Origin: a virus
Virus record (IMG/VR): IMGVR_UViG_3300024336_000019
Span: 1-40,217 of that record
Direction: 5' to 3' (one strand)
Length of the DNA stretch: 40,217 bases
The position numbers and the translations under genes were made by a program. The notes beneath the pieces were generated by a model, which did not search any database, had not been told where the DNA came from, and saw nothing but the letters and a program-made list of their open reading frames with translations. Numbering within the stretch: position 1 is the stretch's first letter; every line of letters begins with the position of its first letter. Of this stretch, positions 7,637 through 35,557 are shown in pieces.

Positions 7637-7645
7637 TAAGACCCG

Positions 7646-7722
7646 CCCCCTTTAGCTTAGTTGGTTAGAGCGTCCGACTCATAATCGGCAGGTCCACTGT
7701 TCAAGTCAGTGAAGGGGCACCA
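7646..7722 (+). tRNA. tRNA with CAU anticodon, probably tRNA-Ile2 (or elongator Met)
   Basis: A full cloverleaf can be folded: acceptor 7646-7652 with 7712-7718, D-arm GCTT...GAGC, anticodon loop CTCATAA, 5-bp T-stem CACTG/CAGTG with loop TTCAAGT, then A and an encoded CCA. Position 1-72 is C opposite C, unpaired; a G at 7645 could pair with C72 only if an extra base bulges. The anticodon stem has a mismatched outer pair. The body (GACTCATAATCG, GGTC, TTCAAGTC) resembles E. coli ileX, so a lysidine-modified Ile-AUA reader is favoured, useful in an AT-rich genome. Confidence 0.88.
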
Positions 7723-23529: not shown

Positions 23530-24831
23530 ATGAAACTAGTAATACTAACCAAAGACGTTAAGTCTGAAACTGTTGAGCGTCTATCCGCTGAAATGACTAA
23601 AACCGGTGGTGAAGTTTATGCGGTAAACCTTGAAGGTGCCTACCTTAAAGACAATAAGATATTCAACATCGATGATAAGAAGGGATTTGAAATATCCCCT
23701 CAAGATACAGTCGTTGCTGTTCGCGGGTCAATCACCCTTAAAGACTCTTATTTAGACCTACTATCTCAAATAGAAAAACGAAAAATCATGACGGTCAACA
23801 ACCGCTTGTGTAATGAGATATGTGCTGATAAATTCAGAACTTCAATTATCCTCGATGAGGCTGGTATAGCTCAACCTAAGACCGCCTTAATTGCTATTGG
23901 TGATAATATCAAAACCAATTACCCTGAGCAAGCATTTAACAAACTAGATACTAAATTCCCAGTTATTCTTAAAACCCTACGTGGTGCTAAAGGTGTCGGT
24001 GTATTGCTTATTGAGAGTATGCAAGCTTTAGAATCTATTACCCAATTATTATATAAGCTTGATGAAAGCTCTGATTTGTTATTACAAGAATATATTAAAT
24101 CAGACTTTGATATTAGAGTGCATGTATTAAATGGTGAAATCATTGGGGTTATGCAACGCAACGTGCCAGATGATGATTTTAGATCAAATTACGCGCAAGG
24201 TGCAACCACTGAAAAATATAAGCTATCTAAGAAAGAAGAGGAAGTTGCACTAGCAGCTGCTAACGCCGTTAGTGGTTATTGGGTTGGGGTAGATTTTATT
24301 CCTAATAAGGGTAATCCATTAGTACTTGAAGTGAATTCATCAGCAGGCACTGAGGGCATCGAGCAGACTATTGGATCATCTATTAATAGAAAAGTAATTA
24401 AAACCATAACTAACTCAGATAATTGGATTAAAGCTAAAACTGCGATTGGTGTTAGAGAAATATTTGAATTTGATTTGTTTGGTAAGATGAAGGCCAAATT
24501 AGATACTGGCAATTCTGTTAAGACTCTTGTTATGCATGCCGACGATCTTGTAGTTAAAAATGATAAAGTAACCTTTACATCCCACGGCCGTGAATATACA
24601 ATGAAGCTGTATGGTATTAAAAAGATTAGATTAAATGGCGACAATGGATTAGAAGAGAGGCCTATGGTTATGTTAGACTTTACCTTTAATGGTGTTATTC
24701 ATAAGAATGTAACCTTTACTTTAGATGATAGATCGACAAAAACAACTGAGGTATTAGTGAATAAAGATTGGATGATTGATAACTCATTCATCATCGATCC
24801 TAGTCTGATGTACACTTTAGGAGAATTATAA
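23530..24831 (+). CDS. RimK-like ATP-grasp ligase fused to RimB-like retropepsin domain
   Basis: A 433-residue two-domain protein. Residues about 1-290 are an ATP-grasp of the RimK type: NRLCNEICADKFRTSIIL, KTLRGAKGVGV, LLQEYI, DIRVHVL, GVDFI and LEVNSSAG. Residues about 305-433 match the RimB/ATP-dependent zinc protease-type domain, including the retropepsin-like DTG at 325-327 and later ERPMVMLDF and FTLDDRS. Bacterial RimK adds glutamates to ribosomal protein S6 and RimB trims or releases them, so the fusion could write and edit a peptide tail on a host or virion protein. Target unknown. It lies between early and late-looking genes behind a late-type box. Confidence 0.85.
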   Translation: MKLVILTKDVKSETVERLSAEMTKTGGEVYAVNLEGAYLKDNKIFNIDDKKGFEISPQDTVVAVRGSITLKDSYLDLLSQIEKRKIMTVNNRLCNEICADKFRTSIILDEAGIAQPKTALIAIGDNIKTNYPEQAFNKLDTKFPVILKTLRGAKGVGVLLIESMQALESITQLLYKLDESSDLLLQEYIKSDFDIRVHVLNGEIIGVMQRNVPDDDFRSNYAQGATTEKYKLSKKEEEVALAAANAVSGYWVGVDFIPNKGNPLVLEVNSSAGTEGIEQTIGSSINRKVIKTITNSDNWIKAKTAIGVREIFEFDLFGKMKAKLDTGNSVKTLVMHADDLVVKNDKVTFTSHGREYTMKLYGIKKIRLNGDNGLEERPMVMLDFTFNGVIHKNVTFTLDDRSTKTTEVLVNKDWMIDNSFIIDPSLMYTLGEL

Positions 24832-31045: not shown

Positions 31046-33331
31046 ATGTCAGACATACATGTCAAGAAGAGAGATGGTTCTCTAGAACCTTTAGACTATG
31101 ATAAAATCCACGAAGTACTAGAAGTATGTGCTGATGGATTAAATGTATCGGTATCAGATACTGCGTTAAATGCACATATCAAATTAGTTAACAAAATATC
31201 AACAGTTAACATCCATCAAACATTAGTTAAATCAGCCGCAGAAAAAATCAGTCCACAAGAACCTGACTACGACGTGTATGCGGGCAGACTTCTTATTACA
31301 CATATGAGAAAAGAAGTATATGGATCAAATGATCCTATTGACTTTTTATCGTATATTGAAAATAATGTAAAGAACAAATTATACTCGCCTGAGATTTTAG
31401 ACTTCTATTCAGACGAGGTGATCGAAGAACTTGGGTCATTCCTTGATAGAGAGAACGACTTCAATAGAGGTTATGCTTCGATTGTTCAGATGGAAAGCAA
31501 GTACCTTATTAAAGATGTTAAGAGTGGCAAATCATTAGAGATGCCACAAGAAACATTCATGATTATTCCAATGGTTATCTTTGCTCATGAGAAGAATAGA
31601 AAGAAACTTATTATAGATTTTTATACAGCATTGAAAGACGATGAGATCTCATTACCTACACCGATTATATCAGGCGTAAGAACTCAGCTTAAGATGTTTA
31701 GTAGTTGTTGTAAGATTAAGATGGGTGATTCATCAGAGTCTATCTTATCTTCTGAGTATGCATTATCGCTTATGACATCTAAGAGAGCCGGTATTGGTAT
31801 TGACATGGGACCGGTTAGAGGTATTATGGCTCCGGTCAAGAACAACACCGTTAAGCATACAGGAGCACTTCCTTTATTAAAAACTGTTGAGGCTGCTTCA
31901 AAACAATTCACTCAAAATTCATTACGTACTGGCGCTACAGTAGTAAACTATCCAATCTTCAATTGGGAGATAATGGATATTCTAGAATATAAAAACAATC
32001 AAGGTTCTAATACTACTAGGGCTAGGTTCATTGATTATACAATCGGCATTCCATCAATTTTTATTGAGAGGTTAATGAAGAAGCAAGACTTTACATTGTT
32101 CTCATCAGAAGAAGTACCTGAGTTATTTGAGCATTATGGCGATACTGAAAAGTTCAATGAAGCATACGAGATGTATGAGAATAAGCGTGGTATTAGAAAG
32201 AACAAAATCCCGGCATCTGAAATCTTTAATAAGTTAATTAAAGAACGTGTTGGTACTGGTAGAATCTATTTACATTTCTTAGATAACATTAATAAGCAAG
32301 GCTTGTTCTCAGAGCCAGTAACACAAACAAACTTGTGCTCAGAAATCTTCTTGCCAACTAAAGCAGTTAAGTTCGATGGGTTGAAACACACTAAATTTGA
32401 TAATATCAGAGACTATGATTTAGATGATGGTATGATCTCATTATGTATTCTCGGCTGTGTTAACTTTGGCAAGCTATCTTCTATTACACGTATAGATAAC
32501 TTAACTAAACTGATGGTTAGATTCTTAGATAACCTTATTGATATTCAAGAGTATCCGTTAGATGCTGCTGAGTGGCCAACGAAAGGATACAGATTCTTAG
32601 GTATTGGTATATCAGACTTTGCTCATTTCTTAGCTAAGTCAGAGGCAAGATTAGGAACAGTTAAAGCGAAAGAGTTAACACATAAGTGGGCTGAACGTTT
32701 CCAATACGGATTAATTAAAGCCTCTATGGAATTAGCTAAAGAACGTGGAGCATGTGAATACTTTGATAGATCAGAGTATTCTAAAGGTAAGTTGCCTATT
32801 GATACCTATAATAAGAATGTAGATCAAATTGTTGATAATAAGTTATTATGCGATTGGGAAAGTTTAAGAGAAGATATTGCTAAACATGGTATGCGCAATA
32901 TGTCTCTTTCTGCTATTCCTCCAACGGCGAGTTCATCATTGGTTAGTAATAGTACACAAGGTATTGATCCTATTCAAAGTGTGACAGATACATTTGAATC
33001 TGCAGCTTATACCGTTAAGAGTTTAGTTCCAGATCATGACAAAGAAAAGTACTATATGAAAGCTTGGGATATGCCAAACAATGATAGTTCTGAATACATT
33101 AAGCTTATGGCTATCCTCCAGAAGTTTATTGACCAAGGTATGAGTGTTAATCAATGGTATGACCTAACCAAAATCGAAGGAAAGATTCTAGATTCAAATA
33201 GAGTTAAAAGAGATATTATTACTGCATACAAATATGGGCTGAAGAGTTTATATTATATCAGAAGTAAAGATAAAGAAAATACTAGTGAAGTGATCCTTGA
33301 GGGTTGTGAATCTGGTGCATGTTCAATTTAA
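31046..33331 (+). CDS. nrdA: Ribonucleotide reductase class Ia large subunit NrdA
   Basis: A 761-residue catalytic subunit (T4 NrdA 754). It starts with an ATP-cone-like segment (VKKRDGSLEPLDYDKIHEVL), has the core cysteine regions (FSSCCKI, NLCSEIFLPT, LCILGCVNFGK), SAIPPTASSS and the C-terminal redox pair in GCESGACSI. It reduces ribonucleotides to deoxyribonucleotides for phage replication. TTGGAGAAAGA precedes the ATG. No intron or intein. It is followed by nrdB after 16 bases. Confidence 0.96.
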   Translation: MSDIHVKKRDGSLEPLDYDKIHEVLEVCADGLNVSVSDTALNAHIKLVNKISTVNIHQTLVKSAAEKISPQEPDYDVYAGRLLITHMRKEVYGSNDPIDFLSYIENNVKNKLYSPEILDFYSDEVIEELGSFLDRENDFNRGYASIVQMESKYLIKDVKSGKSLEMPQETFMIIPMVIFAHEKNRKKLIIDFYTALKDDEISLPTPIISGVRTQLKMFSSCCKIKMGDSSESILSSEYALSLMTSKRAGIGIDMGPVRGIMAPVKNNTVKHTGALPLLKTVEAASKQFTQNSLRTGATVVNYPIFNWEIMDILEYKNNQGSNTTRARFIDYTIGIPSIFIERLMKKQDFTLFSSEEVPELFEHYGDTEKFNEAYEMYENKRGIRKNKIPASEIFNKLIKERVGTGRIYLHFLDNINKQGLFSEPVTQTNLCSEIFLPTKAVKFDGLKHTKFDNIRDYDLDDGMISLCILGCVNFGKLSSITRIDNLTKLMVRFLDNLIDIQEYPLDAAEWPTKGYRFLGIGISDFAHFLAKSEARLGTVKAKELTHKWAERFQYGLIKASMELAKERGACEYFDRSEYSKGKLPIDTYNKNVDQIVDNKLLCDWESLREDIAKHGMRNMSLSAIPPTASSSLVSNSTQGIDPIQSVTDTFESAAYTVKSLVPDHDKEKYYMKAWDMPNNDSSEYIKLMAILQKFIDQGMSVNQWYDLTKIEGKILDSNRVKRDIITAYKYGLKSLYYIRSKDKENTSEVILEGCESGACSI

Positions 33332-33347
33332 AGAAGGAGTATATATC

Positions 33348-34511
33348 ATGAGTTGTAAAATATTTTCACTAGGTGAGACAGTACATAGTAAAGGCACAAG
33401 GTTATTTTTAGGTGAGAATTCATGTCATAGAAACATTCAGACATATCATGATCCGAAGTATCCTTGGATTCTGGACTTTGCAGAAGAGATGAGAAGTATT
33501 GGTAATTGGAGTAAGAATGAGATTGACTTATCAAAGGAGAAGAAAGACTTTGAATCACTAGATGAAGCCGGTAAGCATATCTATGAAGCAGGTTTAAAGT
33601 TTGCTATTACATTAGATAGTTGTGCTGGTCGTGCCCCTCTTCAGTTGTTTAATAATGGTGGTATATCTAATAACCCTGAATGGGAATTATATATTACAAA
33701 TCACCAGAACAATGAGTTACTGCATTCAGAGTCTTATACGGAAATGGTTCGTGCAATCTATAATGATGTAGACCTATTCGTTGATTCTATCACATCGGAT
33801 CCAGAAGTACAGAAAAGAGCTACTTCTATTTTAGGCGCATTCGATTGGGCAACAGGTGTATTTGATAGAATGGATGCTAACTCAACCGCTGTTAATCATG
33901 GTATGGCAAAACCTTTCCCTGAAGTTGATGAAAAGATGATTAAGACTGCAATTTACAAAGCTGCACTTGTTCTTAATATGTTTGAAGGTATTAGATTCTT
34001 CTGTACATTCGTTACTAACTGGAGTTTCTCTGAGCAACCAACTAAACTTATGGCTGGCTCAAGTAATATCTTTAAGCTAATTGCAAGAGATGAGATGATC
34101 CATTTAGATATTGTTCAACGTGTACTTAAAATGCTACGAACAGATGAGAGTGAAGGATTCGTTGAGATTGCACAAGAGCTTGAAGATGAAACATATGAAA
34201 TGTTTGAAGTAGCATATAAAGAAGAGATGGATTGGGTTGAATATCTATTCTCTAAAGGCACTCCCCTGATTGGTATGAATGAACATATCTTGAAAGAGTA
34301 CATGGATTATATCTTTGTGGTACGGATGACCAACATTGGTTTAAATCCATCTAAGCTAGGTCTTGCTATTGGACATAATCCATTACCGTGGGTAGATAAT
34401 TACCTTGATTCAACTAATGTTAAGAGTGCACCGCAAGAGATTGAGAGTGTTAACTACATCGCTGCTATTGATTCAAGTAAAGATGAAGACTTTGATATGG
34501 AGGATTTATAA
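33348..34511 (+). CDS. nrdB: Ribonucleotide reductase class Ia small subunit NrdB
   Basis: A 387-residue ferritin-like radical subunit. Iron ligands are visible in TLDSCAGR (Asp), ELLHSESY (Glu, His and the radical Tyr at the E. coli spacing of four after His) and RDEMIH. The tyrosyl radical residue is present, so this is class Ia rather than a Tyr-less subtype. The frame is open to an ATG-like start at 33297, but ATG 33348 has AAGGAG at the right distance and gives the normal N-terminus. The stop is followed after one base by the TusE-like start. Confidence 0.95.
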   Translation: MSCKIFSLGETVHSKGTRLFLGENSCHRNIQTYHDPKYPWILDFAEEMRSIGNWSKNEIDLSKEKKDFESLDEAGKHIYEAGLKFAITLDSCAGRAPLQLFNNGGISNNPEWELYITNHQNNELLHSESYTEMVRAIYNDVDLFVDSITSDPEVQKRATSILGAFDWATGVFDRMDANSTAVNHGMAKPFPEVDEKMIKTAIYKAALVLNMFEGIRFFCTFVTNWSFSEQPTKLMAGSSNIFKLIARDEMIHLDIVQRVLKMLRTDESEGFVEIAQELEDETYEMFEVAYKEEMDWVEYLFSKGTPLIGMNEHILKEYMDYIFVVRMTNIGLNPSKLGLAIGHNPLPWVDNYLDSTNVKSAPQEIESVNYIAAIDSSKDEDFDMEDL

Positions 34512-35159: not shown

Positions 35160-35205
35160 TAGCTCAAAGTTTAGTAGAACTTAAAACTGCGAACCACTTC
35201 ATAAT

Positions 35206-35510
35206 GGGAGATAAGGTTAGGCTAAAGTCTATCGAGTGCTTCCACCAAATTTGGTAATTTATTACCATTTACTATTGATTGGAGTTATGATACACGGTGG
35301 TTCGAACCCACCCATCTCCACCAAAAGTGTATTATTAACAGTATGCTTTTGATGGGGATGACTTGGAATCGACATCGTAACAGAAGGTTAATAGTTGTAA
35401 GACCCAAAGTAAACGCTAACGCAAATACTTACGCAATCGCAGCCTGATAGGCATAGTGTGATTTGAGGATTTAGGCAGGATGAACCTTATAACCAAATCA
35501 TCCTCCACCA
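35206..35510 (+). ncRNA. ssrA: Circularly permuted (two-piece) tmRNA
   Basis: The acceptor piece comes first: T-arm GGTGG-TTCGAAC-CCACC (35296-35312), acceptor strand CATCTCC, A, CCA (35313-35323). A 30-base spacer with AAAAG/CTTTT ends follows, then the coding piece starting GGGGATG at 35354. GGGGATG pairs with CATCTCC over 7 bp with one G-U. A long P2-type helix also joins the pieces: 35373-35381 with 35284-35292, and 35388-35395 with 35271-35278. A further perfect 8-bp pairing links ATAAGGTT (35211-35218) with AACCTTAT (35483-35490). The outer ends are approximate. It rescues stalled ribosomes and tags the product for proteolysis. Confidence 0.88.
35415..35450 (+). other. tmRNA tag reading frame ANANTYAIAA with two stops
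   Basis: Ten codons GCT to GCC read ANANTYAIAA, followed by TGA and TAG in frame. It has the same length and ending as the E. coli tag ANDENYALAA; A1, N2, Y6, A7, A9 and A10 are shared. The Ala-Ala end is the ClpXP recognition signal in the E. coli tag. Confidence 0.9.
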
Positions 35511-35557
35511 AATTATAGTATATATAGATTGATTGATTAATTTACAGGAATGATTAA

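Follow-up and report, generated by a model that had tools for sequence, protein, structure and literature searches.

The window, i.e. the whole 40,217-base IMG/VR contig analysed here (IMGVR_UViG_3300024336_000019), carries a circularly permuted tmRNA gene on its plus strand at 35268-35510, located between nrdA/nrdB and a glutaredoxin gene that follows the tmRNA. The contig is a fragment of a T4-like myovirus and the phage is aquatic, with T4-like genes for an SbcCD-like nuclease (gp46/47), clamp (gp45), clamp loader (gp44/62), RegA and DNA polymerase (gp43), as well as genes for Hsp20, a UvsX-like recombinase, replicative helicase (gp41), thymidylate synthase and NrdA/NrdB. No close DNA relative of the contig was found among named phages, and the nearest DNA polymerase, 50% identical, is that of Phage C48C1 (Kyanoviridae). 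The NrdB protein (33297-34511) shares no more than about 35% identity with any named-phage NrdB listed, and 70 viral contigs carry close relatives of it. The window also harbors a single phage tRNA-Met(CAT) gene (7645-7722), whose anticodon could read isoleucine too if modified, and a possible host-takeover gene (23530-24831), whose protein resembles a PHROG annotated as ribosomal protein S6 glutaminyl transferase.

ARAGORN called a permuted tmRNA at 35230-35538 with the tag ANANTYAIAA followed by two stops, and the Rfam model tmRNA_permuted (RF04321) matches 35270-35447 with 75.5 bits (E 7.2e-13), well over its cut-off of 47. The beta_tmRNA model (RF01850) spans 35218-35510 at 71.4 bits (E 3.4e-21), a score obtained at a lax threshold and lying under its own cut-off of 84. 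Read 5' to 3', the acceptor half comes first, with its CCA at 35321-35323, followed by a 30-nt intervening hairpin, the 5' acceptor strand from 35354 and the tag from 35415, so that the T arm and CCA stand upstream of both the 5' acceptor strand and the tag (Table 1). The acceptor and P2 pairings across the two pieces are kept through compensation, the alanine identity elements G3·U70 and A73 (A35320) are present, and the tag frame closes on a hydrophobic Ala-Ala end before its stop. The minimum-energy fold of the precursor (-88.4 kcal/mol, z -3.3) includes the acceptor stem, T arm, both P2 segments and the intervening hairpin. An earlier sequence-only reading had proposed a phage-encoded, permuted tmRNA in two pieces, with a 10-codon tag and two stops, a T arm and CCA upstream of the tag and a 7-bp acceptor stem; ARAGORN, RF04321 and the T4-like genes on the contig bear this out, two pieces being meant by architecture.

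Table 1. Parts of the permuted tmRNA gene, in positions of the window
Feature	Position	Strand	Evidence or conservation
Conserved leader upstream of acceptor piece	35193..35267	+	kept in family; DNA farther upstream diverges in L015/L033
Acceptor piece (tmRNA 3' half: P2 strands, T arm, acceptor 3' strand, ACCA)	35268..35323	+	ARAGORN, RF04321, RF01850, alignment
P2 outer strand, partner 35386-35395	35271..35280	+	several pairs with compensatory changes; weaker in most distant sequences
P2 inner strand, partner 35374-35381	35284..35291	+	A-T/T-A/C-G at 35290/35375; A-T/T-A at 35291/35374
T arm GGTGG-TTCGAAC-CCACC	35296..35312	+	paired in 12/12, up to four pair types
Acceptor 3' strand CATCTCC, discriminator A, CCA	35313..35323	+	partner of 35313-35319 is 35354-35360, 12/12
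Intervening segment, predicted removed from precursor; hairpin 35322-35333/35340-35351	35324..35353	+	fold
Coding (tag) piece: 5' acceptor strand, D-loop, P2, tag frame, 3' hairpin	35354..35510	+	ARAGORN, RF04321, RF01850, alignment
Acceptor 5' strand GGGGATG with G3·U70 (35356·35317), alanine identity pair	35354..35360	+	G·U in 12/12 relatives
Tag reading frame ANANTYAIAA, then TGA TAG	35415..35450	+	ARAGORN
3' hairpin of coding piece, conserved loop CCTTATNACCAAA	35477..35504	+	other permuted phage tmRNAs; aligns with beta model 3' hairpin

Several details of that earlier reading were refined. Of the two 8-bp P2 segments it described, the inner one stands at 8 bp and the second reaches up to 10 bp, and its start at 35206 is unsupported as a piece boundary: conservation begins at about 35193, and the portion common to other permuted tmRNAs at about 35268. 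The leader contains the hairpins UGGGAG/CUUCCA (35204-35243) and GGTAAT/ATTACC, with a G-U to A-U change in L015 that keeps pairing. A further 8-bp helix (35211-35218/35483-35490) is present in the sequence as claimed, but was rejected as a general feature of cross-piece pairing since it is not kept in diverged relatives, in which inspection by eye shows the loop side retained and the partner ATAAGG confined to the window family, L091 and L098. A second acceptor stem per half, as a fossil of tandem duplication, was also considered and rejected: pairing of GGAGAT (35207-35212) with ATCTCC (35314-35319) is broken without compensation in L015, which fits a local hairpin instead, and the pairing of GGGGATGA with TCATCCTC before the 3' CACCA is accounted for by the conserved 3' hairpin. 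A promoter scan gave nothing above shuffled expectation.

Scanning IMG/VR with a short-segment permuted tmRNA pattern returned 68 stretches, and the close family comprises 17 sequences including the window, with the tags ANANTYAIAA or ANADTYAIAA. A search anchored on nrdB found 70 relatives, with the tmRNA at the locus in only 19 of them (many loci are truncated), and the gene is therefore dispensable for the group. The order nrdB, tmRNA, glutaredoxin is common to sister phages, and diverged copies occupy the nrdB locus in L091 (ANANTYSLAA), L093 (ANANTYALAA), L098, L111, L117, L119 and L120, the tag protein sequence being kept (as ANADTYAIAA, ANANTYSLAA or ANANTYALAA) despite synonymous changes. 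In a 12-sequence alignment, made with MAFFT for each piece separately and with pairs defined from the window, the T stem and acceptor stem are paired in all 12, and a single position can show as many as four pair types; the T stem, for instance, is swapped to GTGGG/CCCAC in L015, L033 and L082. The third acceptor pair, the alanine signal, is G·U throughout. Both P2 helices show double (compensatory) changes over the same 12 sequences, with pairing that fades in the most distant ones (L020, L061). The intervening segment of the window (30 nt) is replaced wholesale in sister phages by a different one of 38 nt, with its hairpin closure kept. As a separate observation, when L093, L111, L117, L119, L120, L098 and L183 are compared with the window, the D-loop TGG accompanies the T-loop TTCGA, and the D-loop TAG accompanies TGCGA or GGCAGTA; these co-changes, seen in the Rfam alpha consensus too, are an apparent covariation of the tRNA elbow contact.

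The gene is read from its sequence as beta-like. Of the three clade-specific models, the beta model scores best both in the window and in most of the diverged relatives, ahead of alpha_tmRNA (RF01849), which wins for the phage Melnitz. Sister phages L093 (93.7) and L098 (93.2) pass the RF01850 cut-off; the window scores 71.4 against 84, and is for this reason filed as a permuted, beta-like tmRNA and not under RF01850. In a tree from a short alignment the family groups with beta-type sequences, apart from Melnitz, at a weak support of 73 and with some stray placements. The sequence-only reading had seen a puzzle of origin in a gammaproteobacterial tag joined to a gene order foreign to that class, which dissolves because betaproteobacteria combine both: a 10-residue AND-x-x-YA-x-AA tag with permuted order is the betaproteobacterial type (e.g. 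ANDENYAIAA in Gallionellaceae), and nine genes from Gallionellaceae/Nitrosomonadales metagenome-assembled genomes (MAGs) are permuted, with the tags ANDENYAIAA, ANDENYALAA or ANDENFAMAA. A genome scan for a host, with a permuted-gene and xTYA-type tag pattern, found nothing; a looser scan gave only Gallionellaceae/Nitrosomonadales MAGs, which is not host evidence because the pattern fixed the acceptor stem, and a BLAST search with the gene across 274 genomes from the class of these MAGs gave mainly T-arm matches.

Taken together, the locus very probably encodes a functional phage-borne circularly permuted tmRNA of betaproteobacterial type, engaged in ordinary trans-translation. Its best-supported role would be to free ribosomes stalled on broken mRNA, with SmpB and alanyl-tRNA synthetase supplied by the host. 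An acceptor half, the 30-nt intervening hairpin and a tag half lie at one locus, along with every pairing required to keep two pieces joined. The sequence itself shows the architecture, pairing, identity pair, tag and conservation; processing, charging, tagging and benefit are what we infer. As in known permuted tmRNAs, host RNase P would cut the precursor at 35353/35354 and host 3' processing at the CCA, leaving two RNAs joined by the acceptor stem and P2. Host alanyl-tRNA synthetase would then charge the tmRNA, which host SmpB and EF-Tu would carry to stalled ribosomes, where it would add ANANTYAIAA with release at TGA TAG. The likely gain would be that ribosomes are recycled and broken proteins cleared while lytic infection is destroying the nucleic acid of the host.

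Other functions were weighed against this one. The phage tag could serve to direct chosen host proteins to proteolysis or to shield others, with ribosome release being secondary, and ANANTYAIAA does differ from the bacterial tags retrieved (ANDENYAIAA, ANDENFAMAA); its AIAA, however, is the same hydrophobic-Ala-Ala end as in bacterial tags and the choice of targets is without evidence, which makes retargeting improbable. We consider it highly unlikely that the RNA acts as a decoy, binding SmpB or the rescue machinery so as to block trans-translation in the host, as with the short form in mycobacteriophage DS6A (PMC4131195, PMC11915505), since a decoy would need neither the whole tag frame with two stops nor both pieces, all of which are conserved. 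In favour of a decoy, a tRNA-like domain alone is able to inhibit tmRNA (PMC4131195). A search that recovered smpB from 10 of 14 control genomes found none in 16 phage records (the window and 15 related or tmRNA-bearing viral records, many of them fragments), in line with the use of host SmpB as well as with a decoy.

The gene could also be a captured copy of host ssrA, decaying and non-functional, such as a former prophage might leave on excising imprecisely; phages are documented to pick up ssrA pieces (PMC9004378), and occurrence among the relatives is patchy. Against this, all functional parts are intact in diverged relatives, with compensatory changes, tag variation is mainly synonymous, and no integrase was found among the proteins searched of a phage with a T4-like core, and we give decay very little credence. 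That a bacterial contig was misread as viral, IMG/VR records being predictions, has a negligible chance given that gp46/47, gp45, gp44/62, RegA, gp43, UvsX, gp41 and ribonucleotide reductase genes share the contig, and that the same gene lies on at least 15 other contigs.

The intervening segment, 30 nt in the window, measures 140-266 nt in certain relatives and often encodes a small protein. In related phages it is probably a cargo site, in which a frame fills the hairpin loop and its stop abuts the RNase P site, so that one transcript would serve as tmRNA precursor and mRNA alike; the window would then represent the empty state. At least three unrelated small families occur in the segments (MKKKRVGKRGR..CTLC.., M.EIVWHILLTVCL.. 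and MKNPLV..WSICAD..), the first two also as stand-alone genes, and nested frames occur in tmRNA genes of both alpha and beta type. In L117 and L119 the segment, at 173-176 nt, codes for a basic CxxC protein of 53 residues (MKKKRVGKRGRPGWRKRSPRCTLCTPIRWMGN...VESY), with its stop codon lying one base before the mature 5' end. This CxxC family is found on 25 viral contigs: in nine (L148-L153, L157-L159) its frame lies between CCACCA and the 5' acceptor strand, with a permuted tmRNA called by ARAGORN in 6 of the 9, and in the remaining contigs it is a stand-alone gene with differing C-termini. Within the family, pairwise dN falls well below dS, indicating purifying selection, and the terminal stem of the segment, whose 3' strand encodes the last residues, is kept with compensation (AAGATTTTAT/GTAGAATCTT, AAGATTCTAT/GTAGAGTCTT, AAGACTTTAT/GTAGAGTCTT). 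A CxxC-family relative is also seen in an alpha-like tmRNA (L248).

The second family (M.EIVWHILLTVCL...) is present in the segments of one beta-like gene (L184) and of alpha-like genes (L186-L189, L240, L296), alone in L190-L192, between two tRNA genes in L185, and as the gene just upstream of ssrA in Melnitz (gene 85, MZ577097 45780-45980). The third (MKNPLV...WSICAD...) occurs in L215, L241, L245 and L300, with similar frames in L277 and L305. Among the matches listed there are 50 distinct segments of 100 nt or more, and 20 of them contain a closed frame that exceeds shuffle expectation in length (p<=0.01), most of these 20 segments being at least 150 nt; such frequencies are biased, because the second scan pattern included TGATGGG and covers only the matches listed. 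Further small frames, several membrane-like, fill long segments in L215, L241, L245, L300, L277, L305, L248, L236, L307, L243 and L297. In the Melnitz ssrA, the segment (L183 16079-16220) has an unannotated frame MFKWLSKTRLVVITRDYFRERNRKADAKIPKYLSG.. after GGAG that reads on into the mature tag piece, and a related frame occurs in L253. The small families had no match above cut-off in Pfam or PHROG, and no published description of protein genes inside tmRNA intervening segments was found in the open-licence papers searched. The apparent novelty lies with the relatives and not the window: protein genes in the gap between tmRNA halves, which appear to be unreported. They raise the question of whether the excised segment or the uncut precursor is translated, and whether translation competes with tmRNA maturation.

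Permuted phage tmRNAs are already known, and the window adds a further member, a well-supported beta-type case that removes the supposed tag puzzle; its diverged phage copies, with real covariation, give a basis for asking why phages in aquatic settings have ribosome rescue of their own. The earlier view that the known phage tmRNAs are one-piece is not supported, since two-piece cases have been published in Melnitz and in a survey reporting 53 two-piece phage calls, of which marine or aquatic phages account for 50 (PMC9004378), and a 2025 tmRNA database, which built RF04321, lists 79 unique bacteriophage sequences (PMC11915505). The one-piece tmRNAs of mycobacteriophages (e.g. Bxz1) and Bacillus phage G (PMC4131195) are likewise phage-encoded ssrA, from which the window differs in being permuted and two-piece. 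The two-piece tmRNA of Methylophilales phage Melnitz (MZ577097; PMC9004378), re-checked here at 113 bits with RF04321, is alike in being permuted and borne by an aquatic T4-like phage, but is of alpha type (RF01849), with a 14-residue tag (ANDNYVPVDYALAA), a 142-nt intervening segment and a glutamine riboswitch directly downstream, whereas the window gene is beta-like with a 30-nt segment, and no such riboswitch was found beside it in the window. With betaproteobacterial permuted tmRNAs (RF01850; Gallionellaceae MAGs L070-L078) it shares the permuted order, a short intervening hairpin, a 10-residue tag and a matching 3' hairpin, and it differs from them in a shorter spacer between P2 and tag (41 nt, from TCGAC to the tag) and in its score below the RF01850 cut-off.
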